From NCBI GenBank assembly GCA_022072025.1, contig JAJVIP010000014.1, positions 1 through 39,048 on the forward strand: DNA of 39,048 nucleotides. Reading direction: 5' to 3'. Both the position numbers and the translations under genes were made by a program. The notes under the pieces were generated by a model that was given only the letters and a program-made list of their open reading frames with translations, was not told where the DNA came from and did not search any database. The DNA comes from Elusimicrobiota bacterium (GTDB taxonomy: Bacteria > Elusimicrobiota > Elusimicrobia > F11). Numbering within the stretch: the first letter of the stretch is position 1; every line of letters starts with the position of its first letter. Shown here one piece after another: positions 15,001 to 38,436 of the stretch.

Positions 15001-18000
15001 GATGTGACCTCCAGTCACGGTGTTCCTTGGACGAGGAATCTCTCCAGTCAACTGACGATCGCGCCCAGCACGGCTACACGATTATTGGTGTTAATGCCAG
15101 GAGAAACAGCTTTGCCGGGTTCAAGTTCTCCAGGGAAGAGTGGTTCTCCATCGTCACAGGTGGCGGGATCGACATTTGCAGTCAGGGTGCAAATCGTTGA
15201 CGATTACTACAACCCACAACCTCAGCATGACAATGAAATTTTACGGGTGGATACTTCGGATCTCTATGACGCTCATCCCGGCAGCGCGACCTTCGCCAAT
15301 GGAACAAGTGAAGACACGTTTATCGTAACGCTCCGAACAGCAGAGGCAGGCCACACCCTCCGTGCGGTTGATTCCAACCAGATCATTAGCAGCGTCACCT
15401 GGACATCTTCTGTTGCCGGGCCGTTCACCGTCAATCCCTCTTCCGCCAGCCGCTTCTTGGTTCTGTTCCCAGGCGAATCTCATTTGCCAGGATCCGCAAC
15501 TGGAAAATCTGGAACGCCGAGCAATCAGGTGGCCGGCATTTCATTCGCGGTGACCGTCAAACAAACCGATGAGCAATTCAACGCAGTGACCAACGGCACA
15601 ATGCCCACCATGATTCTGCGATCGAATGATGTTTTGGAAGAGTATGTGTCGGCCAATCCCAGCACAATGGTAAATGGGGAGAGGGGCATTACCCTACGGG
15701 CGAAAACTGCCACCACCAATTTCACTCTCACCGCGACCACGCATTCAACCACAGCGAGTGGCACTGAAGGCCTAAAAATTGGACAAGCCTCTGGGTTAAG
15801 GGTTTGGCCAGCCGTCGTCAATCATTTTGAATTTACCAATCTTCCTGTGTCGTCAGTATCAGCCGGAGATCCATTCAACGGGACCATTCAAGTGAGAGAC
15901 CAATTCCAAAATCTCATTTCGACCGGTCCCAATTTGTATACGGGTACGATCCGGTTTGATGCGGAATCCACTGCCAATGGTGACTTTACCGACAGCGCTC
16001 AAGATCCGCTCCTGCCCGGGAATTACACATTCCTGACCAGTGATGCTGGGGTTAAGAATTTCACTGGAGGGGCTGATGGGAACTTTATTTTGAAAAAGGC
16101 AGGGTCCAGATGGATTAAAGCCATTGACTTCGATGATCCGAACATCACCACTGAAAGAGCGGGATATTCCACCCGACCCACGATCACCATCGTTCCAGGA
16201 ACTCCCAATAAATTTGTCGTGACCTCTCCGCTTGACATCAGCGATGGAGTGACGGATTCTTTGGTGAGCGTGGCCGCAGGAAATCTGACGAATCTTGGAA
16301 AGGTGCAAATTGTGGGACAGCTTTCAGACCAATTTAACAATTACATCAGTTCGCCCAACTTCGGTGTTTCATTCAATGTGGTCAATGTGGCGGGGTCAAC
16401 CGGAACCGTTCGCTGGTTCGACGGATCCAATTATAATCTCATATCAGCCACGGTCACTGATGTGAACGGTCAGGTGGGGAGCAATCCGCCGTTCTATTAT
16501 TTCGTGTCCACCAAATCGGCTGATTCGGCTCAAGTCCAATTTGCCAGTCACAGCGTTACGGGCAACACTCTCACGCTTGTTACGCGCGGAGGTTCGCCTT
16601 CAAAACTTGTGTTCATAAACCCACCCGCCAGCGCCAGCGTGGGGGTTTGGTCGTCTAATCAGTTCACGCTTGAACGTCGTGACGACTTTGACAATTCCAC
16701 TTATGAAACAGTCACGAACGTCTCTTTGTCCTTGGGTACGGGTCAGGGCACGACCCATTCCAGCGATGGGAAAACCTATTACTTCACTCAGCCCTTGGAC
16801 CAATCGAGCCACATCACAACTTTGGTCTTCAACACCGGAACCTCGCAAAAGAAATTCTCTTACTACGATACCATGTCTTCCTTGCCTGTGGGTGAAGACA
16901 GTCGCTTGGGAACATGGCAGCTGAGAGCGGACGCTTCACCCTTGACCCCCGCTGTCCATGAGTTGATAGTCAATGCGGGGCCGACGGCTACCATAGGTGT
17001 TGATAATCCCAAACGAACCATTGAAGCGGGGAAAATTCTTTACCAAGGCAATGTGCAGGAAATCGAATTTGAGTTATGGGACTCCTTTTCCAATCCGACA
17101 CTGGCCACAGAGACCATTAAAGTGGTCTTCTTAAGCACGCGGTCCGCCTCTCCAACCAATGAGGCATACGGGTTTGTGTTAAGTTCGGCTGTGACCACCT
17201 TGCCAGGGCTCACCAGCTTAACCACAGGTTCGTTGGACATTACCTCTGGAACCTATGTGACCAAACTCTATTACTTCGATACGCGTTCCAGTGAATCCTA
17301 TGGCGTTCTCGCAGCCAGTCGTCCCATCATCGGCGGTTATGCGCAAGGCCGCAGTTGGCAAACAGCAGACCACTTTGTCGACATTCAGCCCACATTTGAT
17401 TTGGATAACAAAGTGGTGATCGTATCTTCCCCTGCGGTGTTTGTGGCAGGGTCCACTTCTTCGGCTCTCCAAATTCAATTACAAGACAAATATTCAAATC
17501 CCACGCCTGTCATTTTGGGATCGGAAGACAGTGTTGGAAATGGAATCCGCTTCCGTTTGGAATCTGATTCAACGGGAAATTATGGTTTCGCTTCTCCTTC
17601 TTCGGCGACCTTCTCCTCCGGAAATGGAGTGGCGCAACTCATGCTTGGACAACACACCACAGCGTATTATCTCAAGGACACAAAATCAGGTACCCATATC
17701 CAAACGGTTCGGGAAAACTTCTTGCCATCACGCGGTTGGGTCATAGCCACCCAAACTTACACTGTGGTGGCGGCTTCTCCCTATCGACTCATATTTGAAA
17801 CGCCTGTTCGAAAACTAATTGCTGGAACAACCACCACGTATGTCATGGGCGTGTCCACGCCCAATATTCGAATTCAAATGAGAGATATTTATGACAACGT
17901 GACAGCCTCCACAGGCACTCAAGTGGTGGATGTATTTTCTGATTCAACCCTGGGTGAAGCTTCGATTGCTTTGGATGGAGTTTTTGCCTCAAATTATGGA

Positions 18001-21000
18001 GCGAATGGCCTAACACTTACATTCACGCCGGGCACGTCAGAGCGCGACCTCTACTATCGAGATCAAACGGTTGGTTTGCCCGTCTTGTCCGCGGTTCACC
18101 AACAGAATCTCATCATCGCGGCCACTCAACATGTGGTGATTACTCCCAATCAAGCCACAAAGCTTTCTTTGGAGCATTCGTTTAATAATGGGTCTCCTCT
18201 AAGCGTGAGAAACGAAGGGGTCATTAATGTGGTCGCTCGAGATCAATATAACAACCCCGCCAATGGCGGTGTTACATTGGGAGAAAACAATGGTTTAACT
18301 TATTCAGGAACGATTATTCTTTCTCATTCGGGTAGCAGCTCGACAGTGACTCTTTCCGGTGATGGGGTGGGAATATCAACCCTAACTTTGACAGGGACGG
18401 CGACCGGCACATTCACTCTGAAAGACCTGGTCCAAGAAAACTTAAAACTCTACGCCACCGATTACAACAATCCTTCCATCAACGCGCGCACAGGGCTGCC
18501 GCCTTCGAATGATGATGTGGTGACCACCGGTTTGGTGGGAACACCTCAAGATATGGCGCCTGAACCCACAGGTCCGAGCCGAGATCCGTTTAAAGACGCC
18601 ATCTTTATTCCGACCGCGCTTGCGCAAGGAGATGGAACCACAGTGGATAAACCCAACCCCGTGGCCATGTTGCGTATTCGAACTGAAGTGAAACCAGCGG
18701 GGGTGCCCTCTTACTCTGTGTGGAAAGGGTTGCGGGTGACCAAATTGGGCACGTTGCCAAACTCAGACGTGATTGAAGTGGGTCTCTGGCGGGATATGGG
18801 ATCCAAGGATGGAGAATTTGATATTTCTGTTGATGGGGATGGCCTCTCCTCTGGAGTGCCGTTGGCCACAGGCACATTCCAAAATGTGTCAGGAAACGAT
18901 ATCTGCGACTTTGATTTCACAGCCTCTTCACAGATCATCACAACCGTCTTTCAGCAATATTTCATCACTGTGAGGATCAGCACCACCGCTCAAGAGGGAA
19001 CCACGCTTGGTGTGGGAGTTCTTGATTCAAGCGCGTTCACAATTCCAGCGGTTGAATCGACGGCGCGCATCGCTGAAAATAATTTCCCGATGCGCTCCTA
19101 CACATCTCCGATCATTAAAACTCCCGCGCCCGTCATGTTACAGGCCACCAATATCGCAGCCTACTACTCGAATACTCAGCATGCCTCGGTGCCGCAAGGT
19201 CAAACCTCGGTTGGCTACTTGAAGCTGGGATTCTGGACACGCGACTTCACGGGAATTTTGGACAAAATTAAGCTGACCCGTATCGGAACTTCGAGTGACA
19301 TCGACGTCGAAAATGTCCGCTTGTATTACGATGGAATTACCGGCACGGATGGAGATGGGTTTTTCCAACCCGGAAGCGATACTTTAATTGGCTCCAGCCA
19401 AATGCAATTCTCCACCAGCGCGGCCACCTTGAATTTGGTGCCAGATATGTTGATTACTGGCACAACCAAATATTTATTTTTGGTCATGGGACTTGCGGAA
19501 TCGGCTCAAATCGGAGCCACTCTGGGCGTGAGGCTGCCGTCTCGAACGGATATTGTTTTGTCGGATGGAATCATGGTGGACTATTTGCAAGACCCATCGA
19601 CGCAGTCATTCCCCATCCTTTCGGGAACTCCGCCCATTGCCGCCACCAACGACCAATTGATCATCAACCCCATCCCGGTGGCCCCGGCGGCCGCTGTTCA
19701 AGGGGATGAAGATGTTCCCATTCTACGTATGGACATGTACTCGAGCGCGCATTCGGTTATTTTGCAAGGGGTTCGAATCAACCGTAAAAATTCCAATTTG
19801 GTGAACAAACCTTCCGATGTAGCGGACATGCGGGTGTATTACGATTTGGATGGAGACCAGGTTCTAGACCCAACGGTGGACCAGATTGTGTCACCCACCA
19901 ACAAGGCGATCACGTTTATTTCGACAGTTCTTGATACGGCTATTTCAAATGCGGCCACCGTGATTCCAGTCACGACGGTAGAGGACGTCCCCACGGCTCC
20001 TGGACGTTTGGTTTTGGAGGATAATTCCGGGAATAGAGAAGTGGTGACTTACTCAGGCATTGACGCTGTGTTTAATGAGTTCACCGGTGTGACCCGGGGG
20101 GTGGAGGGAAGCACTCCGATCGCGCATGCCGTTGGAGCTACGGTGGATGCTCAGGCCTTTATTCCGATCTTTGGTCCTTTGAGTGGCCAAGAAATTTTGG
20201 GCAATTTGAAATTTAAACCCGAAACGATTCTGGCCGTGGATATGGATTTAAGCACGGGGCCTCTGGTGGTTGATGTGAGCGATACAAGCGAATTCCCCCC
20301 CAGTGGATCGCTGCAAATTGATGCTGAAGTTGGAATCACTTACACAGGAAAAACATCCACATCCTTTACTGGCGTGCGACGGACGCTTCCCGAAACGCAT
20401 ATCACGGGAGATGTGGTTCTGGGGGCCGGACGCAATAAATCCTATTTCATCGTTTATGACGTGGCAGATTTGGCGACGCCGGGCCGCTTGGCGGGGCAAC
20501 AAACGGTGTTGGGCTTGGATATTGCGGCGACCTCCTATGTCACGGTTGGGTCTCCAGATATTGTGAGTCTCATTCCCAGTTTCAACGCAGAAATCGGGGA
20601 TATATTAGAGTTTGGAGACACCATCACCGTCGTGGCGACCAACACAACGTTGGGAGGAACACTTCAACAACAAGCGTTGAACCAACCTGTCATGCAGTTG
20701 ACGCTGGCCACCAATCGGTCCGAGGCATTTTGGACAGGGGTGGGTATTCTCTCGACTGGAACGGCCAATCCATCCGATGTAGAGAGAATCGGCGTATGGT
20801 ATGACCTCGATAACAACGGTGTATTCACTGAAATTTCTGATGTGATGGTTGGTTCGGGAACCTTTGGCAATACTGGAAATCCAAAACTGGCTCAGATTAA
20901 TTTTAATGAGGAACAGTTACTGGTGACCAATTCCAGAAGCGTTGGTGAAAACATCAGCCCTCGATATTTCGTTACGGTGGATATGGAGTCCCTGGCCACA

Positions 21001-24000
21001 CCTGAAACAACAATGGGTTTTGTGATTTCAGGTCCGTCGGCCTTCAGCATGACACCGACGCCGCCCAATCTGGATACGGTGAGCCCCTCGGGTCTCCCAG
21101 CGATTTCAAGATTGCGAACGATTATTCCGTCTCCTCGCGTGGTAACAGTGGTGCCGGAAATTCTTTATAGCAATTCAAATGGAGTATCAATAACGCCTGT
21201 TATTGATGTGGATGTGACCGCCAATGCCACCTCCATTCCCATTCGGCCCAACACGGTGGGGCTGCCCACCACCGGTTATGCCGTCATTGATTCTGAGATT
21301 GTTTATTATGGCGGAAAGAGCAACGGATCTTTGCTCAATGTGGATAGAGGACAATTCGGAACGGCGGCCCAATCTCATATTGGCGGAGCGCAGGTCGGTG
21401 TGTATTACACCCAAGGCGACCTCAACAATGCATTTATGAAATTGTTGGTTTCTTGTAATGGATTTAACGTGCGGTGGTTCTCATTAAAATTAAATCGATA
21501 CCTTCCTGCTGGATCCATCAAGGGCGATGACGCCGACGTCGCCATGATTAAAATCTGGAAAGACAATGGAAATGGGGTATTGGACCGGGATTCAGCCACG
21601 GGTCTCATCCCACCTGGAACGGAATTCCTCATGGGCGAAAAAGCCTTGGGCACAGAAAGCGACGCCGCCGGTACAGCGGTCATCAGCTTGAACGATTCCA
21701 CCATCGGTAATCCTGGCTTTACGCTCATCACATCTCAACAAACGACCTATTGGGTCACCGTTGACGTGGATCCGACCGCAGAATTTGATGATCTCTTGGG
21801 CTTTAAGATCAACAGTCCCACCAGTTTGACCATTGGAGCATTAACGGCCAATGACGGCATCCACAGTGTTGCCAATACGAACATGCCTGTGACCACGCCG
21901 GCGCATGTGCTTCGTCCGACGCTCGATACCATGAAGATATTTATCGAAGATTTGGCGCCGCCCGAAGTGACTCAAGGGCAACGTTATGTGCCCATGGCGC
22001 GCATTAATTTAAAGACAACAGCCAATACGGTGGTCTGGACCAACCTGCGCGTGGACTTGACGTCTGACAATGGAGCCGTGAATGGAGATGTGTCGGCTAT
22101 TCGGTTGTTCCAGGACGTGGGCAATGATGCGATCTTTAACGTTCAGGAGACCAGTACGAATGCCAACGGTGTGTTGGTGAGACAATTGTCTCAAGGAACC
22201 GAAACATTCAACAACATGGTGACCACGTTGAACTTGGGATCACAAGTCATTGAATCAGAGATTGTGAACCCCTCCGGTCAGAATTATTTCTTGGCCTATG
22301 ATCTCAATGCTTTTGCCCAAGTGGGTAAAAACGTGGGAGTTCAGATCGCAGCCACCAGCTACTTCTCCGTGGCCTATCCAGATCTCTCAGTTTTCCATCC
22401 CATCTCTCCTCCATTTTTAAGTTCTCGTTCGAGCATTCTCGAAGCGGAAGATTTGGTGACCTTGGCGGTGGAGGATTCCGCCAAAGACGCGGCGTTGGCG
22501 GGGGGAACTTATCAAGCCAGTGAAAATGTGGAGGTGATGCGCTTCAGCGTTACCACCGATATCTCTCAAGCCTATTGGACGGGGCTAAGAGTGGAACGCA
22601 TTGGCGCCTCAGCAGACCCTGCCTATCCCTACGGCCACAATGCAGATGTGAAATACGTGAAAATTTGGCGGGACACCAACTTCAACGATCAATTGGACGC
22701 GTCAGATGAATTGCTCAGTTCTCCGACAGCGCACTTCAGCCTGACCGATGAAAACGATCGTATTGTCCAACTTGATTTGACCAGTCCTGTTTTAATTTCT
22801 CCGACCGCACGTAGTTTCTTCTTGTCCTATGATATTGGCGAAGGAGCGGAGGCAGGAGCCTCATTGGGAGTCAAAATTGGAGACTTGTCATGGATCAGCG
22901 TGTCTGCCCCCAATGAAGTGTCTCCGACGATTCGATATTTATCGGGGGCTGCCGGCACCCAATCCTATCCCTATCAAACTTCGCTGATCCCAATTAACGC
23001 GGTTCAAGTCACTATTTCCGGACAAACATTGGCTCCGGCCCAGATTCCGCAACTTTCAACCGGGGTGCCGATGATGATGTTCACGATGAACACGGATCGA
23101 AATTTTGTGACGCTTAAGAAAATTCAGCTCATTCAGATAGGAACGGTGGAAACATCAGCCGATGGCCAAGGAGATATTTCAAAGATTTCCATTTGGCGAG
23201 ACAATGGGAACACCATTTTTGAACCCGGCAACGATGTGTTGATTGGATCTGTCCTGCATGCCGCGTCCACCGATTATGTGAATGGAACAGCTTATCTGTA
23301 TCTCAATGTTTCCTCGGGGCAAGTCATCAACACCACACCTCTCAACTTCTTTGTGACGGTGGATGTGGGGGATCGTTCGCTTTCTAACCGATCAACGGAA
23401 GGGCATGAGTTTGGTTTGAAAATTCAGGCCTTTTCCTCCTTGTTCTTTGTTCCACCCACAGCCGGGTCCAATCCCAATAATAGTTTCTCATCGTTAATTT
23501 CCAACAAGACATTAATTCTGGATGAAGGAGCGGCCATTGTTTCTTCTGTGTTCTTGTTGCCAAAAATTTGGGTGAATCCTTTTGGGGATGGATATCCCGC
23601 CATCGATCAAAGTGGATCTCCGGCCGCCAGGCAATACGATTCGTTTGGGGTGCCGTTGGTCGACGTGGATGGGGATGGCGAAAACGACATTATTAAAGAT
23701 GCTTCCACAAGCCTTCCGGGTATTGATTTGGATGGGGACGGATTGATTGAGATGGACATGACCAGAAGCGGACTTCTCTCCGTTGACTTCAACAATGACG
23801 GTAAACCCGATGATGTGTTGCCGGATCAAAACGGAGATGGCATTCCTGAAATAGACCTGGCGAAAGACGGTTTCCCAGACTTTGGTTACATTCCAGAAAA
23901 ATGGTCCAAGGATACGTCGCGTCTGTTCTCGCGATGGGCCCGGATTAACAACTCTACGTTGGAGGAGTACCAGATTGGAGTGGGCGTCAATAACATGTCC

Positions 24001-25445: not shown

Positions 25446-27155
25446 ATGATCGAAGTGAGAGAGGGATCACATCGAGTTTTTATTTTCAAAGCGATGAACT
25501 CGCTTTGGAATTTTATTTTTTCCCCGGCCCGCCCCTCCCTGATGAATTCTTCATATAAATTCAACACGCCGCTGAAATCACATCTCACCCATGTGTTTTT
25601 GGTTTTGGTGTTGATGACATCTTGGTCCCGCGTATTTGCCGGCGGAGAACCCGCCGGGTTTTTACAATGGGGCATTGGCGCCCGTTCGTTGGGAATGGGT
25701 CGGGCCTTTTTGGCTGTGTCCGACGACGCCAGCGCTACCTATTGGAACCCCGCCGCCATGGTGCAATTGGAGAGAAAAGAGCTTCAAGCCATGCAGGCTT
25801 CTTTGTTCGAGGAAACCACACTTAATTCACTCAGTTATGTTAGTCCAGGCAACAAAATGGGGGCGTGGGGTTTTAATTTCACACGGCTGAATTCAGGTGG
25901 GTTTGAGAAAGTCGCTGTCACGGTGGATCCCACCTCGGACCCATCGAGCCCCAGCTATCTGAATGTTGAAAAAGTGGGCTCTTATACGGTGGCCCAACAA
26001 GGCATAACTCTGGCTTATGGAAAACAAGTGACGAACAAGCTTTCCATGGGAATTTCGTTAAAGCGGATCAGCACCCAAATTGACACTTTCACGCAGTCTT
26101 TCTCAGCGGTGGACCTCACCGTCTTCTCAAAGGTAAATGAGAACTATCGATTTGGTTTGGCCTTTAAGAATGCGGTAACCCAAGCTCCCGCAGCCTCTAA
26201 TGACCGCCTCCCTTTAACCATTCGCTTGGGGAATGCTTATAGTCTTTTAAACAAGCGGCTTGTTTTGGCCGCGGATATCAACTCCAATAAATACTCCGGC
26301 ATGGGGTGGAATTTGGGGACTGAATATTGGGCCACGCGAAAGATGGCGCTGCGTTTAGGGCTTGAGAGCCGTCAAAGCCAGATCGCTGAAACGACATTTG
26401 GATTTGGATTTGCTGTTAAGAGCGTTAATTTAGATTTGGCTGTGGGTCTAACCGAACTTGGAATGTCGCAACGGATGTCTTTATCTTGGAAATTCGGCAA
26501 AGGAGCCACCACGGGTCGCGGTGAAGAAGTTCGTCGATTGATCAAAGCAGGCGAGATGGCCTTTGGAAAAGGCAATTATGCGCAGGCGGTTGCCCGGCTC
26601 GAAGCGGCTCTTTCCGTCGATCCTGGAAACAAAGATTTGCAATCCATGGTGACCAAAATGAACAGCATTGCAGGGTCGGTTCCTGCGGCGACGGGGGATG
26701 GAGAAATTGACCGGTTGGTGCGGCAAGGTGTGTCAGCTTTTGTCCAAGGTGATTTGACCACGGCCTATGATTCCTTGCGCACCGCCTATGAGAAAAATCC
26801 GTCCAACCAAAATCTCATGAACTTTACCAATCGCGTGGCGCGTCAAGCCGGGCTGCCGCAAGTGGAACCCCCGCGCGACACCACCTCTGGCGCTCGTTGG
26901 ACGCTGGTCGATCAAAAACTGCATGACGCTCTGACCGCGATCTATGAAGGTCGCTATGACGTGGCCATCAGCAAATGCGAACAAGTCCTGCGGATTGACC
27001 CGAGCAATGTGACGGCGATTGGGCGTATGGGCGCGGCATTCTTCCTGATGGGTGAAAAAGACAAGGCCATCACGCTCTGGAGACGGGCGCTTGAACTTGA
27101 ACCGAACAACCAGACGGCCATCGATTATCTCCGCCAACTGGGCGCCTATAAATAA
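25446..27155 (+). CDS. PorV/UPF0164-like outer-membrane barrel protein with C-terminal TPR repeats
   Basis: 569 residues. The ATG at 25446 follows AAAGGGTG at 5-6 bases. A hydrophobic core (about 49-59) and a VFA/GGEP cleavage-like site (about 65/66) form a signal peptide with an unusually long n-region. The ATG at 25542 (residue 33) would give a normal-length signal but has no visible ribosome binding site. Residues about 66-355 are a barrel opening with GARSLGMG.AF.A..DDA.A.YWNPA, the hallmark of the PorV/PorQ/UPF0164 family. Residues about 358-569 hold three or four TPR-like units (for example A..RLEAAL..DPGN and AI..WRRALELEPNN). PorV shuttles type IX cargo to the cell surface; family members also occur in bacteria without that system. 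A TPR tail would face the periplasm and could bind the motor proteins encoded next (inference). Confidence 0.85.
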   Translation: MIEVREGSHRVFIFKAMNSLWNFIFSPARPSLMNSSYKFNTPLKSHLTHVFLVLVLMTSWSRVFAGGEPAGFLQWGIGARSLGMGRAFLAVSDDASATYWNPAAMVQLERKELQAMQASLFEETTLNSLSYVSPGNKMGAWGFNFTRLNSGGFEKVAVTVDPTSDPSSPSYLNVEKVGSYTVAQQGITLAYGKQVTNKLSMGISLKRISTQIDTFTQSFSAVDLTVFSKVNENYRFGLAFKNAVTQAPAASNDRLPLTIRLGNAYSLLNKRLVLAADINSNKYSGMGWNLGTEYWATRKMALRLGLESRQSQIAETTFGFGFAVKSVNLDLAVGLTELGMSQRMSLSWKFGKGATTGRGEEVRRLIKAGEMAFGKGNYAQAVARLEAALSVDPGNKDLQSMVTKMNSIAGSVPAATGDGEIDRLVRQGVSAFVQGDLTTAYDSLRTAYEKNPSNQNLMNFTNRVARQAGLPQVEPPRDTTSGARWTLVDQKLHDALTAIYEGRYDVAISKCEQVLRIDPSNVTAIGRMGAAFFLMGEKDKAITLWRRALELEPNNQTAIDYLRQLGAYK

Positions 27156-27223: not shown

Positions 27224-29110
27224 ATGAATGTTGCTTCAAGAAAAATCAGCTTGATTTCTATGGTTGTTTTGCTCGGTTTTGGTTCGGTTCTTTTTCCGGA
27301 AACCGATGCTCCCGACCCCATGGCGCTGGATCAAGAGCGCCGCCTGAAAGATGATTCCGAAAGACAAGCCCAATTGATTTGCGACAGCATTCTTGGGAAA
27401 AACCGGTCCAGTGTTTTGGTGAATGTCGAGATTGGACTTGAAAGCACAAGGAAAGGTGGATCCGCTTTAAATCAAAAGCGGGATTCTAAGAGCGGATTGG
27501 GGGATGACAATTTTATTCTGCCGTGGGTTCCCGCTCCAAAATCCGTCAGTAAAGAAGAAACCCCCAAAGACATGAATGTGGAGAATCAAGCCGCGCAGCA
27601 AGCCACCCTGGACGTTAAAACAGTTCTTAAACGGTTTGATATCACTGTTGTTCATGACGACTCCATTCCTGAGGAACGCGTCATCATTGCCAAAGAAGCC
27701 TTGGCGTCGGCGTTTGACCGTTATAAATCCATCTTGAAACTGGTTTTTAAAGCCAGTTCCTTTCTAAAGGACAATTACGATCCCAAAGAATCCATCAAGA
27801 AAAATCTCATCGGATCTTTGGATGCGAAAACCTTGGTCTATTTGTTGTTGTTGCTTCTGGTGTTCATGCTCCTCCGTTTCTTTTTTGGCCCCCTGGCTGA
27901 TTTCATGAAGAATTACATTGAAGGAATGAAAGAACAGTCCAAATCCAAGGTGGAAATGGAAAACAAGAGCGAAAGTGAAACTGACAGTGAAGCCAGCAAT
28001 GAAGAAGAAGGAAACCTGGAAGGGGAAAACGGGTTAACGGCTGAGGAACAAGCCGCTTTGGATGTGCAGTTGGCAGAGGAGGAAGCCATGAAAAAATTCG
28101 AACCATTTAAATACGTGACTGACGACAACATCAAACAGTTGGCTTACCTTTTACACCATGAAGAACCGTGGGTGGTGGCTCTTGTGATCTCCTACTTAAG
28201 CGCCGAACATTCCTTTAAGGTTATGGAAGCCCTGCCCGCTGATCTCCAGGCCAAGGTGGCGCTTGAAACCGCCATGTATCGGCAAACTTCTCACGAACAA
28301 GTCCAAGCGATTGATGAAGACATCAAACAGAAGATCGACTTTGTGGTGGGAGGTCTTGAAAAATTGGTGGTTATCCTGGAGAGCTCGGACCGGATGTCTC
28401 GAGACAATATCTTGGAGTATCTTAAAAATGAAAAGCCCGGTGTCTATGAGCGTGTGCGGGAACGGGTGTTGTTGTTTGAAGACATTGTTAATTTTCCAAA
28501 ACCAGCCATGCAGGTGGTGGTGCGAGAATTAAAAACAGAGCAGTTGGCGAGAGCTTTAAAGGGAACAAGTCCAGAAATGCAACAAAAGTTTTTCGAAAAC
28601 ATGTCTCAAGGGGCGGTGACGTTGCTTAAGGAAGAAATGGATTATGGACGACCGGTAACGGATGAACAGATTGAGGAAGAACGGCGCAAAATCATCGACC
28701 TGATTAAAAGCATGGAGACGGAAGGAAAAATATCGTTTCGACAAAAAGGGAAAGGGGCTTCTTTGGGGGCGCTTGATATGGGCGCGGATGGTCCCATGGC
28801 AATACGGGGACCAGTGGGGAGTGCCGCCCAACCTTTGGATCCTGAAGGGGCTCAGGCCGCTTACATGGCCGGCTTACAGGCGCAAGAGCAAGGCAATGCT
28901 GAAGAATCTCTTCGACAATGGGAACTCAGTGTCCAATTGGATCCGACTGTGGCCGCTTCGCAACTGGCTTTGGCCGGCGCTTATTACGCCGCGGGGCGAT
29001 ATCCGGAAGCCTTGGCTGCTTATGACGCGGGGCTTCAAATCGAACCCAATCCTGAATTACAAGCTTGGGTGGAGCAATTTCGCCTGAGCCAATCGGCGCC
29101 GGCGGCTTGA
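27224..29110 (+). CDS. FliF-like/FliG-like fusion motor protein with C-terminal TPR
   Basis: 628 residues. The ATG at 27224 follows GGGGAG at 7 bases; a TTG at 27209 in the same frame is less likely. A signal-anchor is at about 8-24. Residues 36-180 resemble the third ring-building domain of FliF: ILGKNRSSVLVNVEIGLEST (56-75), an insertion, then a second half ending near 180. A membrane helix lies at 204-223 and an acidic linker at 245-290. Residues 296-505 are clearly FliG middle plus C-terminal domains, including LARALKG (441-447), FFENMSQ and a KEE acidic helix. Residues 541-616 are TPR-like. FliF forms the flagellar inner-membrane ring and FliG the torque-bearing rotor; here one chain carries both, spanning periplasm to cytoplasm. 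The FliM-binding EHPQ motif of FliG is EEPW here. The FliF RBM1 and RBM2 domains are absent. Confidence 0.85.
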   Translation: MNVASRKISLISMVVLLGFGSVLFPETDAPDPMALDQERRLKDDSERQAQLICDSILGKNRSSVLVNVEIGLESTRKGGSALNQKRDSKSGLGDDNFILPWVPAPKSVSKEETPKDMNVENQAAQQATLDVKTVLKRFDITVVHDDSIPEERVIIAKEALASAFDRYKSILKLVFKASSFLKDNYDPKESIKKNLIGSLDAKTLVYLLLLLLVFMLLRFFFGPLADFMKNYIEGMKEQSKSKVEMENKSESETDSEASNEEEGNLEGENGLTAEEQAALDVQLAEEEAMKKFEPFKYVTDDNIKQLAYLLHHEEPWVVALVISYLSAEHSFKVMEALPADLQAKVALETAMYRQTSHEQVQAIDEDIKQKIDFVVGGLEKLVVILESSDRMSRDNILEYLKNEKPGVYERVRERVLLFEDIVNFPKPAMQVVVRELKTEQLARALKGTSPEMQQKFFENMSQGAVTLLKEEMDYGRPVTDEQIEEERRKIIDLIKSMETEGKISFRQKGKGASLGALDMGADGPMAIRGPVGSAAQPLDPEGAQAAYMAGLQAQEQGNAEESLRQWELSVQLDPTVAASQLALAGAYYAAGRYPEALAAYDAGLQIEPNPELQAWVEQFRLSQSAPAA

Positions 29111-29112
29111 TC

Positions 29113-30864
29113 GTGAAATCATCTGAAGAACTCGACCAACGATTGGCCCGGCTTCAAAAATGGTCGGAACGCTATGACCGGTTATTAGAACGAGAAGCGA
29201 GGTCCATTGAAGCGCTCTATTTACACGCTGTGCAGGACTGGGACAAAGAGAAAAAAGAAACAATCGAAAGTATTGCCCTTCGAGAAATAGAAATAAAAAC
29301 CCAGTTGGAACAAGCGGGAAAGGACTATTCCCAGGCGAAATATCGTTTGGAACGAGACACCCAAAAAACCAAAGAAGATCGCGCGCGCCTGGATGAAGAA
29401 TTTTCTGAAGTGGAAAAAAAATATGAACAGGAACTCACGCGGATACAAGAGGAAAAAACCCAATTGAAAATTTCGTTGGAAAGGCAAAAAAGCGCGTTGA
29501 CTGATTTGTATCAGGAAAAAATGAGGCATTTAGCTGTGACTCGAGCTGGCCTTTTGAGGGAATGGCAGAACATTGAGATTAAAGTGAAAGGCACCAAAGA
29601 TAAGGCGCAAGAGGAAATTAAAAAACTGAATGAAGATTCGGAACAAAAATTAACCCAGCTCAAAAACAACGCCGAATCGAAAAGAGCGGGGTGGTCTCTG
29701 GCGCTTGAAACCATCAAAAAAGAATTGGGCTCGCTCAATCAGGAACGGGAGCATCTTCAAGAACGATTGGCCAACATTAAGGGGGAAAAAGAAAAGGAAT
29801 TGCATGAAGCACGCTTGGGAATGAAGGTGTTGCGGGAGCAGCTGGAGGTCGACAAGGCCACGCTCATCGAAAAAGCCGAGGTCGACCAGCAACAATGCGA
29901 AGTGGAAGTAGTGGATTTAAGAAATAAAGTCATTTCAGGCGAGAAAGAGCTTCAGGATCTCGTGTTGAGGCACGAACAGGCCAAAAAACAAATGGAGGAG
30001 GCCTTCCAAAAAGAAGAATCCCTGCTCAAGGAGACGGTCAAAACGGAATCAGAGCGCCGGGATTATGAGCAGAAATTATTTGAACAGGAGAAAACCTCCA
30101 AGGAGAAAGAGCTCAATCGTCTCAAGGAAGAGTACGAAAAGAAAAAATGGCAATGGGACAATCAGATTCGCTCGTTAATGATGCAAAAGGCCGTTCGAGA
30201 CTCTGAGTATGACGCTGAGCGATTGCGTGTGGACCGGGAGGCACGAACCTCTTTGAGAAGTTTGGAGGCGAAGAGAGATGAGTTAAAGCAGCGACTGGCC
30301 GACGTCAAGAATCGAACGGCCGCTGTGAGCGCGAATTCGGAGAAAGAAATCAATTTAATCAAACAACGTTGGCAATGGCGGAGGGATCGTTTGTGGGCTT
30401 TGTGGCAAAACCGTTTGGATGTTTTGAAAAAGGAACGCATATCCCTTCAAGAGCAAATTGAAATCTTAAGTCAAAAATTCCTGAAAGAAACGAGCCACTT
30501 GAGAGAGGCTGAAAATCAAGATCTGAAGCGAACCGATGAGATGCAGAGTTTTCTCTTGCAAATGGATGAAAATAACAAAGGGCAGAAAAAACAGCGCGAA
30601 ATGCAATTTGAGCTTGAAAAAACGAAGCTTTTCGCACAGATTAAAGAGCTCGAAACAACCATTTCGGATTGGATCGATCGGATGAAGATGACTCATTCGG
30701 AGGTATTAAAAGAGTCATCAGGAGTGGGAGCCCAAGTGGGATTCCTTGATAAGTGGTATCGCCAAGAAGAACAGGAGACACAAGTATTTCTTCGAGCTGT
30801 CCAAGAAGCTTTGTCGGTTGTAGAAGCCATCTTTGAAAGTCTGGGAGCGAAAAAAGCGGCGTGA
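29113..30864 (+). CDS. Long coiled-coil protein of the motor operon
   Basis: 583 residues from the GTG at 29113, two bases after the upstream stop. A TTG at 29107 overlapping that stop (TTGA) is an alternative; neither has a strong ribosome binding site, so translational coupling is likely. From about residue 5 to 560 it is almost unbroken heptad-rich, charged sequence (many E, K, Q, R and L), with no signal peptide or membrane helix, so it is predicted cytoplasmic. I recognise no family; hits to SMC or myosin-like proteins would be compositional. Its place after the FliF-FliG fusion gene suggests a scaffold or connecting rod on the cytoplasmic face of the motor (inference). Confidence 0.8.
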   Translation: MKSSEELDQRLARLQKWSERYDRLLEREARSIEALYLHAVQDWDKEKKETIESIALREIEIKTQLEQAGKDYSQAKYRLERDTQKTKEDRARLDEEFSEVEKKYEQELTRIQEEKTQLKISLERQKSALTDLYQEKMRHLAVTRAGLLREWQNIEIKVKGTKDKAQEEIKKLNEDSEQKLTQLKNNAESKRAGWSLALETIKKELGSLNQEREHLQERLANIKGEKEKELHEARLGMKVLREQLEVDKATLIEKAEVDQQQCEVEVVDLRNKVISGEKELQDLVLRHEQAKKQMEEAFQKEESLLKETVKTESERRDYEQKLFEQEKTSKEKELNRLKEEYEKKKWQWDNQIRSLMMQKAVRDSEYDAERLRVDREARTSLRSLEAKRDELKQRLADVKNRTAAVSANSEKEINLIKQRWQWRRDRLWALWQNRLDVLKKERISLQEQIEILSQKFLKETSHLREAENQDLKRTDEMQSFLLQMDENNKGQKKQREMQFELEKTKLFAQIKELETTISDWIDRMKMTHSEVLKESSGVGAQVGFLDKWYRQEEQETQVFLRAVQEALSVVEAIFESLGAKKAA

Positions 30865-33614
30865 AAATGGATAAACCTGACGATAAACCAGGACCCACGG
30901 GTCCGCTTCGGCCTCCGCACCCTCCTCCCGGGGGGAATAAGCAGGGGTCCTTGCCCAAGGGGCCTGTTCCACCGCGGGGGGGAGCTCAACTTCCGGGTCT
31001 TAAGCCCATGGCCCGCCCTCCGGCGGCGGTTCCACCCACTGGAGGATCACCTACTCCACCGCCACCGAAAACCATGTCTCCCCCGGGTCCTCCAGCAATG
31101 AAAGGTCCTCCTCATCCACCGGTTCCGTCTGTGGCGCCGCCGGCGCCGCCGGCACCACCCGCGGCGGGAGCCATCCCTCCCGTTGTGAGCAACAAGTTGG
31201 CAGAGGCAGATGAGGCCAAAACAGACATGGAAAAGCGCATCGCAGAACTTGAGAAAAAACTTTTAGAGGAAAAAGAAAAAGTTTTGCTCGCTTCTTTGCG
31301 GACCAAAGAGGAAGAGGCCGTTTCAGCCAAAGTCGAAACATCTATAAAAGAGATCCAAGACAAAATCCGGCGGGAAAAACGTGAACAAGAGTTGGATGAG
31401 GCGCGCCGAAAGTCAGAGGCTCGGGCGCTTGAGCTTGAGCGGCGTATGGCCGAGGAAAGAGAGGCGTGGGTATCAACCCTCAAAACTCAATTGGGACAAC
31501 GGGACCAAGTTACGCAGGAGATGGAAACACACTTCTCAGCGCGGCTCAAAGATTTGGAGTACCGCTGGTCCCAAGAAAAATCAGCTTTGGAAAGCGCACT
31601 TCGAGAACGGGAAGCGGAATTAACCCGGGTCCGACATGAAGCTCAGCTCAAAAGCGAACAAGAAAAAGCGTTCTGGGAAGACCGTTTGAAATCGATTGCG
31701 GCAGAACGAGACAAACTCGATCGAGAATTAGAGAGAAGCAAAGACAAGTTTTCACAAGAAAAAGACCATTTGCTTCTAGAACGGCAATCGCTTCGGGATC
31801 ACTTATCCAAGTCAGAAAATATGTTGAAGTTCATAGAAGAACAACATCGAACGGAAAAAATGGTTCTTCAGCGCGAAGCCGACGCCAATCTGGGACTTGT
31901 CAAGAAGCAAATCAATGTCGAGAAAGAAATGCATGATAAAGAGGTGGCCGGTCTCCAAGCGCTTATTCAGAATCATGTCAGAGAGATCTCAGAAAAAAAC
32001 AAAGCCCACCATGCTCTTGAGCAGCAATTAACAACGGCACGCGCTCAAAATACTCAGTTGGATTTTAGGATGCATGAGAAAGATAAATTGTTGCAGGATC
32101 AAAAACAGAAAGTGGTCGATTTAAATGGGGTTATTGAAAATGTCCGTAAGAAATATGAATTGGAAATAAAAGAATTAACCAATGAATTGAATCGGACAAA
32201 AATTGCAAATAAAGATGAGGCGTTACGTGCCCAAACGGAATCAGAAGCGCGAATAAAGACTTTGCAATCACGCCTCGATTGGTATGACTCAAATGTCAAG
32301 CGTGAATATGAAATCGCCCGTACGAAGGTTCAGAACGAATTGGATGAACTGAGAGAAAAATCAAAATTAGCTGAGAGAGAAGCTTCAGAACTAAAGGCTG
32401 AAAAGCAAGCACGGATGGATGAGCTTGAGGAAGCCAAAAGACAAAGGCAGCAAGACAATAAAGCGCGATTGGCGGCAGAAGAGACTCTGGAACAATTGAA
32501 GGCCGAATGGAAACAAGTGCAGTGGAATTTTGAAGGGCAACTCAAAGAAATAAATGAGCAGCTACGCTCAACCCAATCCAAGTTGGAACAAGCGGAGGAC
32601 GTTCGCATTACCCTCGAACAAGAGCTCAAACAACGTCATTCCAATGCTGACTATATTCAAAACCAATTGGAGCAAAGAGAAAATGAGCTTAAAAAAGTGT
32701 CCGATCGATTAGAAAAGCTAACCAAAGATTATGACTTCACCAAGGAGAAAGAAGCTGCCATGGAAGCTCAGGTGGAGGAATATAAGAAGATTCTCCAAGG
32801 GAAAGGATGGGAAGGGATTGAAGGTTTGAGATCACAATTACAAGAAAAAACAGAAGTTATTGAAAAAACACGAGAAACTGTTCAAAAGCTCAATCTTAAA
32901 ATTCAGGAATTAGAGAAAAAAGAAGACCAATTTAGAGAGAAAGAACATGCGCTTAAGCAAATCATCGCGAGCAAAGACGACATGGTAAACGAGTTTAAGA
33001 ATAGGGTGAATGTTTTGGATCGAAAACTTTCCCAATTACAGCAGGATCATGAGGAGTTGGAAAAGGAATCCCAAAAAGAACGAGAACGTATGTTAGAGGT
33101 CAAACGAGTCGAGATTGAACAATTGATGAAGAAAAAAGAATTAGAAATAGAAGAAGAGAAGAAAGCGGCGGTTGAAGCCGTTATGGAGAAAATGCGCGCT
33201 GAGCTCCCACCCCCGGGTCCCAGCGCCGAGGCCATTGAGAGCCAGATTCGACTGAAATTGGAGACAGACTTCATGGATCAGTTGAGGCAAAAAGAAACGC
33301 TGTATGAGGAACGCCTCGCCAAGGTTTCAGAGGAATCAAAAAAAGACATCGATAAATTAAAGTGGGAGATCGAGAGCGCCAAAGAAGAGGCCAAGCGCGC
33401 TCGTGAAGCTCGTTCTCAGATCGAGCGAGAGGCACAAGAACTCCTTCAGCAAGCCGATGCCCATTATCAACGAGAATTATCAAAACATCTCGCGATGTCC
33501 GGACAAGGTGAGGGTAAAGCCAGAGGCCTCTTCACTTCCATTGGAATGGTGATTGGGAAAATTTTAGACACACCCATTATTGATACCAAGAAGAAAAAAG
33601 ATGATTTGCCTTAG
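30861..33614 (+). CDS. Very long coiled-coil protein with Pro/Gly-rich head and amphipathic tail
   Basis: 917 residues from the GTG at 30861, which overlaps the upstream stop (GTGA); an ATG at 30867 is possible. Residues about 5-108 are a low-complexity proline/glycine-rich head with PPPP and PPAPPAPPA runs. Residues about 115-880 are continuous coiled coil, on the order of 110 nm if fully extended. The last 30 residues contain a small hydrophobic segment (GLFTSIGMVIGKIL) and a lysine-rich end, which could touch the membrane. No signal peptide. The layout recalls cytoskeletal or polarity scaffolds such as AglZ or FrzS of Myxococcus gliding only in general shape; no receiver domain is present. 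The function is unknown. It may be a track or scaffold for the motor. Confidence 0.8.
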   Translation: MKMDKPDDKPGPTGPLRPPHPPPGGNKQGSLPKGPVPPRGGAQLPGLKPMARPPAAVPPTGGSPTPPPPKTMSPPGPPAMKGPPHPPVPSVAPPAPPAPPAAGAIPPVVSNKLAEADEAKTDMEKRIAELEKKLLEEKEKVLLASLRTKEEEAVSAKVETSIKEIQDKIRREKREQELDEARRKSEARALELERRMAEEREAWVSTLKTQLGQRDQVTQEMETHFSARLKDLEYRWSQEKSALESALREREAELTRVRHEAQLKSEQEKAFWEDRLKSIAAERDKLDRELERSKDKFSQEKDHLLLERQSLRDHLSKSENMLKFIEEQHRTEKMVLQREADANLGLVKKQINVEKEMHDKEVAGLQALIQNHVREISEKNKAHHALEQQLTTARAQNTQLDFRMHEKDKLLQDQKQKVVDLNGVIENVRKKYELEIKELTNELNRTKIANKDEALRAQTESEARIKTLQSRLDWYDSNVKREYEIARTKVQNELDELREKSKLAEREASELKAEKQARMDELEEAKRQRQQDNKARLAAEETLEQLKAEWKQVQWNFEGQLKEINEQLRSTQSKLEQAEDVRITLEQELKQRHSNADYIQNQLEQRENELKKVSDRLEKLTKDYDFTKEKEAAMEAQVEEYKKILQGKGWEGIEGLRSQLQEKTEVIEKTRETVQKLNLKIQELEKKEDQFREKEHALKQIIASKDDMVNEFKNRVNVLDRKLSQLQQDHEELEKESQKERERMLEVKRVEIEQLMKKKELEIEEEKKAAVEAVMEKMRAELPPPGPSAEAIESQIRLKLETDFMDQLRQKETLYEERLAKVSEESKKDIDKLKWEIESAKEEAKRAREARSQIEREAQELLQQADAHYQRELSKHLAMSGQGEGKARGLFTSIGMVIGKILDTPIIDTKKKKDDLP

Positions 33615-33804
33615 ACGCCTTAACGGAACGGAATTTTGGTTGAACGCGGAATTGATCGAGCAAATTGATTCAACGCCGGACACGGTCATCACATTGACCA
33701 CGGGAAACAATTTGGTGGTATTGGAAAAAATCGATGTGGTGATTCAAAAAATTAAGACGTATCAGCAAGAGACCAAGATGAAAAAGGAACATTCATGGAT
33801 CTAG
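33601..33804 (+). CDS. flbD: FlbD family protein
   Basis: 67 residues. The ATG at 33601 lies inside the last codons of the upstream gene (14-base overlap). MICLRRLNGTEFWLNAELIE, followed by PDTVITLTTGNNLVVLE, matches the FlbD family along almost its full length, and family members are about 60-70 residues. FlbD genes sit beside motA and motB in spirochete and Firmicutes flagellar operons. The Bacillus subtilis homologue SwrD increases flagellar motor power, so a stator-related torque role is likely. It overlaps motA by 10 bases. Confidence 0.88.
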   Translation: MICLRRLNGTEFWLNAELIEQIDSTPDTVITLTTGNNLVVLEKIDVVIQKIKTYQQETKMKKEHSWI

Positions 33805-34583
33805 GAACAATTGGTGGAATTCTCATCGGCGGATTTATGGTTTTTATTACGGTCTACCACTCGGAGGGACTCAAGGGTTTTCTCCCTTTTCTGAATTTAG
33901 AAGCCTTTTTGGTGGTGTTGGGAGGAACATTTTGCGCTTTGTTGGTGAACTACCCGATCTCGCAAGTTTTTGGAGTTTTTAAAGTCCTTAAAAAAGTCAT
34001 GCGCAATGACAAGATCGATACGCAGGAAATCGTGACCACCTTCGTAAAATTCGCGAAGAAAGCCCGGACGGATGGTTTTTTGGCGCTCCAAGATGACGTG
34101 AAGAACACCAAAGACGATTTTTTAAAGAGGGGCGTTCAACTGGTCATCGATGGGGCCGATAAAGAATTTACCCAAAACATGATGGAAACCGAACTGGGGT
34201 TCATCCGTGAACGCCACAAAGTGGGGCAAGAAATATTCAATTCTCTGGGAACCTACGCTCCGGCGTTTGGGATTATCGGAACAATATTGGGAATGATTCT
34301 TATGATGAATTCATTGGATGATGTAGCCCAAGTACCGAGGCGCATGGCGCTTTGTTTATCGGCGGCTTTTATGGGATTGGGATCTGGATATTTGGTGTTT
34401 TTGCCGATGGCGGGCAAACTTCGGCGGAGATCTGAAGAAGAGCTGTTGTTAAAAGAGATCATCATTCGTGGCGTTTTACTTTTACAAACGGGAGCCGCCC
34501 CCAGTTTGCTTGAGTCCAATCTTAAAGCCTATTTGGATCCGGCCACTCGCAGTTTGATTCGATCAACCGCCGGAAACGAGTAA
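33795..34583 (+). CDS. motA: MotA-like stator ion-channel subunit
   Basis: 262 residues. The ATG at 33795 follows AAGGA at 7 bases and overlaps flbD. Four membrane segments are visible (about 3-22, 34-54, 150-172, 185-206) with a large cytoplasmic loop, as in MotA. The two conserved prolines of the family are present: P156 in TYAPAFG and P204 in VFLPMAGKL, corresponding to P173 and P222 of the Escherichia coli protein. The loop contains the typical RG..LV.DG.D and E...ERH motifs. MotA surrounds MotB in the inner membrane and transmits ion flow as force onto FliG. The natural partner here is the FliF-FliG fusion three genes upstream. Confidence 0.92.
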   Translation: MDLGTIGGILIGGFMVFITVYHSEGLKGFLPFLNLEAFLVVLGGTFCALLVNYPISQVFGVFKVLKKVMRNDKIDTQEIVTTFVKFAKKARTDGFLALQDDVKNTKDDFLKRGVQLVIDGADKEFTQNMMETELGFIRERHKVGQEIFNSLGTYAPAFGIIGTILGMILMMNSLDDVAQVPRRMALCLSAAFMGLGSGYLVFLPMAGKLRRRSEEELLLKEIIIRGVLLLQTGAAPSLLESNLKAYLDPATRSLIRSTAGNE

Positions 34584-35264
34584 ATGTCGCTCAAACCTCC
34601 CAAGGGAATGATCGAGGAATCCGACCCTCGCGTCACATTAATTGGGCATCCCGCCCCGGGTTGGATGGTCAATTACGCCGATTTGATGACGGAACTGGTT
34701 TGTTTTTACTTAATCCTCTATGCGCTGTCGGCTTCCCTTTCCAAACCAGTTCAAGAAGCGAAGAAACAAGTGGAAGAGACCATGAAATCAGAGGATGTGG
34801 CCGGTGACGTTAAAATCACAAAAGACGGCTTGGTAATTTCACTGCAGGAACAGGGGTACAACGTTTTTTTTGAAAGCGGATCGAGTGAAATGACCGATCA
34901 AATGAAACACATACTCGATCAATTGGCCCCCACTTTCCAAGGTTTGGCCGAAAAAAAGCATGACATGATTGTGGAAGGGCACACCGATGATATTCCCATT
35001 CGAACCGCCAAATTTCCCTCCAATTGGGAGTTGTCAACCGCCCGGGCCACAACGGTGGTTCAATATCTTATTGCGCAGCATCGATATCCTCCGGCGCATA
35101 TCGCCGCGATTGGTTATGGGGAAAACAAAGCTCTTCAGCGGTCCGAAGATGAAGACTTAAATGCGTGGCGATCCAAAAACCGTCGCGTTGTTTTTGTGGT
35201 TAAAAACCCCGAAAAACAAGAAGTGGTCAACGGGAAAAAAGCCTCCGAAGAAAAACCCGATTAA
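34584..35264 (+). CDS. motB: MotB-like stator subunit with peptidoglycan-binding OmpA domain
   Basis: 226 residues; the ATG directly abuts the motA stop. One membrane helix (about 27-50) carries the ion-binding aspartate D33 in WMVNYADLMT, equivalent to D32 of E. coli MotB. The OmpA-like domain (about 80-210) has VEGHTDD.PI, FPSNWELSTARA, and a basic NRRVVF end, the peptidoglycan-anchoring pattern. It is shorter than the E. coli protein (308 residues), mainly in the linker and tail. The coupling ion (H+ or Na+) cannot be told from what I see. The next gene converges, so this is the last gene of the operon. No clear terminator is visible in the 41-base gap. Confidence 0.92.
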   Translation: MSLKPPKGMIEESDPRVTLIGHPAPGWMVNYADLMTELVCFYLILYALSASLSKPVQEAKKQVEETMKSEDVAGDVKITKDGLVISLQEQGYNVFFESGSSEMTDQMKHILDQLAPTFQGLAEKKHDMIVEGHTDDIPIRTAKFPSNWELSTARATTVVQYLIAQHRYPPAHIAAIGYGENKALQRSEDEDLNAWRSKNRRVVFVVKNPEKQEVVNGKKASEEKPD

Positions 35265-37536: not shown

Positions 37537-38436
37537 TTGAAAGTTCTTTTGTCTGGATCGACAGGATTGGTGGGATCAGCTCTTTTTGAGAGTTTGAGAA
37601 AGCAAAGACATGAGGTGGTGAGATTGGTGCGTTCGGTGGGCGCCAGTTCCGGGACGGACATCATTTGGGATCCCAAAACCGGTGAAGCAGAAAAATCTCG
37701 TTTCGAGGGGTTTGATGCGGTGGTTCATTTGGCCGGAGATGGAATTGCCACGGGACGATGGAACGAACGGAAAAAAAGGGAGATTCGTGAAAGTCGTGCA
37801 CTTGGAACAAAAAATTTAGCCGAGATTTTGTCGCAACTTCAAAACCCGCCGTCGGTTTTCCTGACGGCATCGGCCATTGGAATTTATGGGAACCGCGAGG
37901 CCGAGGTGTTGGACGAGCAGAGTCAACCCGGGAAAGGATTTTTAGCGGAGGTGTGCCAAGAATGGGAGGCGGCCGCTCAGCCGGCTTCTCAAAAAGAGAT
38001 TCGAACGGTGCAAACCCGCTTTGGAATAATTTTAAGTTCAAAAGGGGGGGCGCTTAAAAAGATGTTGTTTCCCTTTAAGATGGGTTTGGGCGGAATCATT
38101 GGAGATGGAACTCAATATATGAGCTGGGTGGCGTTGGCGGATGTGGTGGGAGTTCTTGAGAAAACCCTCCTGGACTCTTCCCTCAAGGGCCCGGTGAATG
38201 TCGTGGCTCCGGAAGCGGTGAACAACGCGACATTCACTCAAATTTTGGGAGATATTCTTTTACGCCCCACTTTGCTTCCCATGCCGGCCTTTCTAGCGCG
38301 TTTGGCCTTTGGCGAGATGGCGGATGAACTTCTTCTGGCCAGCGCGCGGGTTACGCCCAAGAAGTTGTTGGCCAGTGGGTACCATTTCCAATTCAGCGAT
38401 TTAAAATCTTGCTTGGAGGATTTACTTTCCCGTTAG
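37537..38436 (+). CDS. TIGR01777-family NAD(P)-dependent epimerase (SDR)
   Basis: 299 residues, the usual length. It starts at TTG 37537, four bases after AGGAGGG; the only nearby ATGs (37514, 37517, 37520) are in another frame. The N-terminus has the Rossmann GSTGLVGSAL motif. VVHLAGDGIATGRW, TASAIGIYG and a C-terminal DUF1731-like end identify the YfcH/SDR39U1 group of atypical short-chain dehydrogenases. The substrate is not established for this family. It is divergent from clpB, and its last 15 bases overlap the end of sodC on the other strand. Confidence 0.92.
   Translation: MKVLLSGSTGLVGSALFESLRKQRHEVVRLVRSVGASSGTDIIWDPKTGEAEKSRFEGFDAVVHLAGDGIATGRWNERKKREIRESRALGTKNLAEILSQLQNPPSVFLTASAIGIYGNREAEVLDEQSQPGKGFLAEVCQEWEAAAQPASQKEIRTVQTRFGIILSSKGGALKKMLFPFKMGLGGIIGDGTQYMSWVALADVVGVLEKTLLDSSLKGPVNVVAPEAVNNATFTQILGDILLRPTLLPMPAFLARLAFGEMADELLLASARVTPKKLLASGYHFQFSDLKSCLEDLLSR

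Follow-up and report, generated by a model that had tools for sequence, protein, structure and literature searches.

A putative flagellum-type rotary motor encoded without a flagellum in the Elusimicrobiota

Introduction

It is usual to view the FliG torque ring and stators of the flagellar type as parts of the flagellum, and the stators that work elsewhere (AglRQS, GldLM, TolQR and ExbBD) are of other types. Here we describe an operon in a 39,048-nucleotide stretch of DNA from an Elusimicrobiota bacterium (GenBank assembly GCA_022072025.1, contig JAJVIP010000014.1, positions 1 to 39,048 of the forward strand), a stretch that is called the window throughout. The operon carries a gene in which FliF and FliG are fused and, further downstream, flbD, motA and motB, and it probably encodes a rotary motor of the flagellar type in a bacterium that has no flagellum.

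The closest described systems share some of these features. Chlamydiaceae are likewise bacteria without flagella in which a shortened FliF is naturally fused to FliG (PMC4768692). The FliG present there is the middle domain only, the flagellar genes are those for FliF, FliL and FlhA, and the setting is that of an injectisome in the host (Bergeron 2016, PMC4768692). The Myxococcus gliding motor, AglRQS-Glt, is a case of a flagellar-stator homologue that works without flagella (PMC9120999), and the text of that paper nowhere mentions FliG. AglRS has been placed in an ExbB/TolQ-like clade together with generic transporters (PMC12505986). In the open-licence PMC literature searched, we found no description of a motor of this kind in Elusimicrobiota, and the main text of PMC12505986 does not contain the term Elusimicrob.

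Results

A natural FliF-FliG fusion is encoded in the operon

The FliF-FliG rotor in the operon is the strongest evidence for a flagellum-type motor. The gene at 27224..29110 (+ strand) is a natural FliF-FliG fusion, which joins a FliF periplasmic domain, a transmembrane (TM) helix and FliG domains in one chain; Pfam and the structure model together give a signal peptide, a FliF ring-building motif 3 (RBM3)/collar domain, one TM helix, FliG_M, FliG_C and tetratricopeptide repeats (TPR). The FliG middle and C-terminal domains are clear both in the sequence and in the full-length predicted structure. The middle domain (28133..28339, +) matches Pfam FliG_M at 3.6e-14 and the C-terminal torque domain (28418..28735, +) matches FliG_C at 1.2e-28, both over cut-off, and a profile from alignment A1 searched against the PDB returned FliG (1lkv) at 2.8e-66. 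Alignment A1 was made from 23 of the 29 loci L020-L048 together with the window and contig C5 of the same genome; it omitted L021 and L024, which are both flagellar FliG, as well as L032, L044, L046 and L048. When compared by VIA with 8ucs_H, a stator-bound FliG with MotAB, the FliG_C model aligned with a Z of 15.8 and 1.1 A over 88 residues. An assignment of the FliG-like part to MgtE_N was rejected, its match being 5e-4 against the FliG_C value given above.

Since the full-length fold search hardly probed the periplasmic domain (residues 27-197; 27302..27814, +), this domain was modelled alone. Comparison of the periplasmic region from 13 relatives with four flagellar FliF proteins by hhalign gave a probability of 98.1 and an E-value of 1.3e-13 over FliF residues 233-432, and the control comparison with MotA gave 0.4%. 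FliF was the best family in a PDB profile search at 1.1e-5, with SpoIIIAG next at 1.5e-4. A Foldseek search with the domain alone returned FliF in every one of rows 1-18 (5.0e-5 to 8.0e-4), and VIA aligned the domain with FliF at a Z of 12.4 (4.2 A over 114 residues). OsmC-like folds ranked below every FliF row, had no sequence support and were rejected. The TM helix lies at residues 204-222 (27833..27889, +), with a hydropathy of 2.61 over 19 residues.

The periplasmic part of the window fusion is unrecognised by Pfam. Pfam YscJ_FliF_C is over its cut-off in an orthologue of the fusion from the second cluster described below, scoring 28.4 bits in the genome search and 26.7 bits in hmmscan. 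Of a full-length FliF, with RBM1-3 and two TM helices, only the RBM3/collar and the TM helix that follows it were recognised in the fusion. FliG_N was not seen in the fusion either. The role of FliG_N is to tie FliG to FliF, so its absence fits a protein in which the two are fused.

The stator genes follow a flagellar order and the stator is of flagellar type

The original prediction held that flbD, motA and motB overlap or abut in the order known from flagellar operons, and this is what we observe. The genes for FlbD (33601..33804; Pfam FlbD 9.2e-26), for MotA, a flagellar-type stator subunit (33795..34583), and for MotB, a stator subunit with an OmpA-type peptidoglycan-binding domain (34584..35264), all lie on the + strand. 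The upstream coiled-coil gene runs 14 nt into flbD, flbD and motA overlap by 10 nt, and the first base of motB comes directly after the motA stop codon. MotA matches Pfam MotA_ExbB at 9.2e-26 and MotA_N at 21.5 bits, under the cut-off of 27.3; MotB matches MotB_plug at 2.5e-9 and OmpA at 1.9e-14; and the window FlbD is 33-45% identical to four flagellar FlbDs. Directly downstream of motB is a gene for a ClpB-type AAA+ ATPase on the opposite strand (35306-37447, -), so fliL and fliM do not follow motB, in agreement with the same prediction. The likeness of this order to flagellar operons was also confirmed: flbD-motA-motB is found in annotated records of Thermomicrobium, Granulicella and Arthrobacter and in open reading frames (ORFs) of Acetoanaerobium, and the annotated flagellar order in Thermomicrobium is flbD-motA-motB-fliL-fliM-fliN.

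Of the named loci, 49 extend 5.5 kb or more past the downstream end of the fliF-fliG gene, and 40 of these have flbD-motA-motB on one strand, in order, after the fusion gene. Across the phylum, at least 115 of 132 FlbD matches over cut-off lie directly upstream of a listed motA, a lower bound that draws on the FlbD matches over cut-off and the first 127 MotA matches listed. Given these two counts, the order is not due to chance. Variants of the arrangement were also seen. G330, from another Elusimicrobiota lineage, has flbD-motA followed by two motB genes (L171:2963-5422), and in four lineages (L167, L168, L169 and L170) a gene of 1600-2100 aa lies between the FliF-FliG and coiled-coil genes and motAB is elsewhere in the genome.

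A MotA tree of 44 rows was calculated, including 14 of the 42 complete operon MotAs of the named loci and no AglR row. The 12 ExbB/TolQ rows split from the 32 MotA rows at 100/100, which excludes an ExbB/TolQ identity for the operon's MotA. Placement within ExbB/TolQ, the outcome that had been set beforehand as contrary to a flagellar origin, did not occur. At E <= 0.01, the only NCBIfam matches to MotA were flagellar MotP/MotA/PomA models, all of them under their equivalog cut-offs. On these sequence comparisons the assignment of MotA to the flagellar type is firm. Two non-flagellar groups stand among the flagellar MotAs, each a single clade at 100/100: the window group, with 17 rows, and the C5 type, with 3. 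The best tree nests the window group within the flagellar MotAs (95/91). Approximately unbiased (AU) tests gave p = 0.122 for monophyly of the 12 flagellar MotAs, p = 0.306 for a window group placed outside the flagellar MotAs, toward ExbB/TolQ, and a borderline p = 0.054 for the two non-flagellar MotA groups joined; E. coli MotA, TolQ and ExbB are long branches in the tree. The proposed descent of the module from a flagellar operon therefore has the nesting in its favor, while the first two AU tests leave alternatives standing, and we regard descent from a flagellum as the favored reading of the tree.

In E. coli, the stator-rotor contact pairs are R90/D288-D289 and E98/R281 (PMC12505986). 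MotA P173 and P222 are kept in 45 of 45 sequences, and R90 is present as K or R in all 45. The 66 loci found in named genomes gave 60 complete fusions (alignment A2 took 46 and alignment A5 took 40), and the FliG D288 position is E in 60/60. As judged from these alignments, one contact pair is kept (R90/D288) and the other (E98/R281) is not. MotB has Asp32, the plug motif and the OmpA-type domain, and the D32 equivalent is present in the window, in both C5 copies and in 40/40 loci.

Rotor and stator co-occur across the phylum, mostly without an export gate

FliG_C is found in 151 of the 340 genomes of the phylum and flagellar-type MotA in 153. Both are present in 149 genomes, FliG_C only in 2, MotA only in 4 and neither in 185 (Fisher p 3e-89, uncorrected for kinship). 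FlbD occurs in 133 of the 340 genomes at E <= 0.001 and is over cut-off in 131. FlhA occurs in only five genomes (G110, G117, G166, G168 and G187), and FliM/N in six at E <= 0.001, four of them over cut-off; 147 of the 151 FliG_C genomes are without FlhA. The window genome itself has no flagellum, as had been proposed: its best FlhA match, at 12.3 bits, is under cut-off, and FliM/N gave no match. The claim that FlbD is retained also stands, for the protein is real and travels with motA. Among the FlhA-positive genomes, FlbD is found in G110 and G187 only, beside a non-flagellar motA, and in none of G117, G166 and G168. Since the FlhA genomes carry FlbD only beside non-flagellar motA, FlbD belongs with the non-flagellar motor in this phylum.

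The few FlhA-positive Elusimicrobiota are without FlbD beside flagellar genes. One of them, G168, has FliM/N and no FliG_C match, and another, G187, has no FliM/N match. All 66 relatives of the locus in named genomes are from Elusimicrobiota, a few being titled just 'bacterium', in a scan that used one peptide pattern and is not an exhaustive demonstration of restriction to the phylum.

The window genome contains a second cluster on contig C5 (L013:18137-19957 and L014:1-3059 of G000), where a TPR protein gene precedes a second FliF-FliG fusion of 606 aa; the cluster also has motA, a pair of differing motB genes and a gene for a REC-GGDEF regulator. In G163, of the same family, the fusion, motA and the pair of motB genes are arranged in the same way.

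Genes for outer-membrane and giant surface proteins lie upstream

The window begins at the very start of contig C14 (base 1), in a genome of 3.64 Mb that is given as 100% complete. Upstream of flbD and on the same strand, the operon contains a giant immunoglobulin (Ig)-repeat gene, a PorV-family/TPR gene, the FliF-FliG fusion gene and two coiled-coil genes. The giant ORF (49..25065, +) has lost its 5' end at the contig start and encodes a surface protein of at least 8338 aa with a C-terminal FlgD_ig-like domain (1.8e-6; 28.3 bits, cut-off 27). A PorV/PorQ-family outer-membrane protein with C-terminal TPR is encoded at 25446..27155 (+), with matches to NCBIfam PorV_fam NF033709 (121.2 bits, cut-off 90) and Pfam UPF0164 (24.7 bits, cut-off 21.4). 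A PorV homologue lies upstream of the fusion in 55 of the 57 loci with enough upstream DNA, and in 32 of 49 loci a homologue of the C-terminal part of the giant protein ends directly upstream of PorV. The matching giant open frame in G150 (L177, L178) is at least 12,401 aa long; in G107, the giant gene is absent from the stretch read. The two coiled-coil genes, assigned by eye, encode proteins with no TM helix: one at 29065..30864 (+), and a Pro-rich, long coiled-coil protein at 30861..33614 (+) that is conserved in the operon. Most named loci with enough flank have the gene order PorV-like, FliF-FliG, coiled coil, FlbD, MotA, MotB.

SprA_N was over cut-off in none of six genomes, and the control genomes gave no SprA_N match either. 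A weak match of 17.0 bits lies inside an 1875-aa open frame on contig C32 of G163 (L145) and may be due to chance or come from a type IX translocon that has diverged. The coiled-coil gene at 29065-30864 has a homologue among the 66 loci in L049, a close relative, only, and is for that reason perhaps a lineage-specific addition to the operon. A Cu/Zn superoxide dismutase gene (38422-38943, - strand; Sod_Cu 4.1e-40) lies close to the motor operon.

Discussion

We put at roughly 0.6 the probability that this operon encodes a flagellum-type rotary motor without a flagellum, that is, without an export gate, FliM/N or a filament, and that the motor drives surface motility or the movement of giant proteins. 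The identity of the parts, their domain order, co-occurrence and conservation, the contact residues, and the absence of an export gate and C-ring can be read from sequence or predicted structure, and from them we infer the formation of a ring, its rotation, the transfer of force to the outer membrane and motility. In such a motor, MotA and MotB would form the stator, with FlbD as an accessory and with MotB anchored to peptidoglycan, and the ion source would be protons or sodium. The rotor would be the FliF-FliG fusion, whose RBM3/collar domain would oligomerise in the periplasm to give an inner-membrane ring; the single TM helix would take this ring through the membrane, and FliG M and C would meet the stator in the cytoplasm. 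The fusion itself would make FliG_N dispensable. Turning of the periplasmic ring would pass force to the outer-membrane PorV-family/TPR proteins and from these to the giant Ig-repeat surface proteins, and the output would be surface motility or adhesin movement.

Several points weigh against this proposal. A role in motility is conjectural. FliF RBM1 and RBM2 were not seen in the fusion, so ring formation is not assured, and the model of the periplasmic domain is of modest confidence (predicted local distance difference test score 65.9). At the second contact pair, R281 is replaced by G in 56 of 60 fusions, and the E98 position is E in 21 and Q in 24 of 45 MotAs; it is likewise Q in all 3 flagellar Elusimicrobiota MotAs of the same alignment. 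The flbD-motA-motB genes are missing within the flank in 9 of the 49 loci, and motAB is absent from the 20 kb read downstream of the fusion in G322, G323, G326 and G244. All four of these genomes have MotA and FlbD elsewhere, mutually adjacent in at least three of the four. Finally, the giant protein was detected next to PorV in no more than 32 of 49 loci, so that it may not belong to the machine.

Of the rival proposals for what the motor does, the best supported is that it powers export of the giant proteins in a type IX-like manner, with FliF-FliG and MotAB replacing GldLM, the PorV-like protein acting as a shuttle and the FlgD_ig-like end serving as a sorting signal. The PorV_fam match over cut-off, the presence of PorV upstream in 55/57 loci, FlgD_ig at the C-terminus of the neighboring giant and the homologue of that C-terminus directly upstream in 32/49 loci are consistent with export, whereas SprA_N is over cut-off in 0/6 genomes (apart from the 17.0-bit match in G163) and FliG gives rotation, for which export has no obvious need. 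We regard this as possible but rather unlikely. It is less probable still that the genes are the leftover of a lost flagellum, reused for structure or signalling and non-rotating. Such an origin would suit the flagellar homologues of every motor part and the rare members of the phylum with an export gate (FlhA in 5/340), but the ion-channel and torque residues are retained, rotor and stator occur together in 149 of the 155 genomes with either, and the unit is duplicated in the window genome. Moreover, FlbD in the FlhA-positive genomes is beside a non-flagellar motA (G110, G187) or missing (G117, G166, G168), which argues that the motor is not a remnant of the flagella of those genomes.

A role for FliF-FliG as a type III secretion adaptor, as proposed for Chlamydiaceae, draws on the natural FliF-FliG(M) fusion of that family (PMC4768692); we reject it as highly improbable, because an export gate of the FlhA family is missing from 335 of 340 genomes, and FliG_C and MotAB are present here. 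Instead of deriving from the flagellar motor, this motor could be its sister, from a lineage that diverged before a complete flagellum existed. The AU tests at p = 0.122 and p = 0.306 do not reject this history, yet the best tree nests the window group among flagellar MotAs, and FlbD and the flbD-motA-motB order are common to flagellar operons of four other phyla, which makes a sister relationship doubtful. A bolder version, also improbable in our judgment, is that a phylum-wide, stand-alone FliF(RBM3)-FliG and MotAB motor left the flagellar lineage before the latter gained its export apparatus, C-ring and filament, and thereby retains a minimal ancestral torque engine, which here moves giant adhesins on the cell surface.

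Because flagellar torque parts sit beside outer-membrane and often giant surface proteins, the data suggest an undescribed rotary machine in many non-flagellated Elusimicrobiota, one that probably moves the cell surface. If this is true, nature would have provided a minimal rotary motor here and Elusimicrobiota would gain a candidate motility machine, and the question of which flagellar parts suffice for torque would become directly testable. It would also bear on the origin of the flagellum, since the motor here stands without its secretion system.

SpoIIIAG, which forms the ring of a sporulation channel, comes second among the PDB families matched by the periplasmic domain, but FliF ranks higher in both sequence and structure, and the SpoIIIAG system is not known to have a FliG or a stator. 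Type IX secretion and Bacteroidetes gliding (GldLM, PorV) likewise pair a PorV-family protein and a FlgD_ig-like C-terminus with an inner-membrane motor, whereas the motor here is MotAB with FliG, and SprA_N is not over cut-off in the six genomes. Unlike AglRQS-Glt, the Elusimicrobiota operon pairs a stator of flagellar type with a rotor made of FliG and FliF, and in contrast to Chlamydiaceae, FliG_C, MotA, MotB and FlbD are present and there is no export gate. Relative to the bacterial flagellar motor, FliF and FliG are fused, without RBM1/RBM2 or FliG_N seen and with TPR added; neither FliM/N nor FlhA is over cut-off in the genome; and PorV-like and giant proteins lie alongside. What the two have in common is the FliF RBM3/collar, FliG M and C, MotA, MotB, FlbD and the flbD-motA-motB order.

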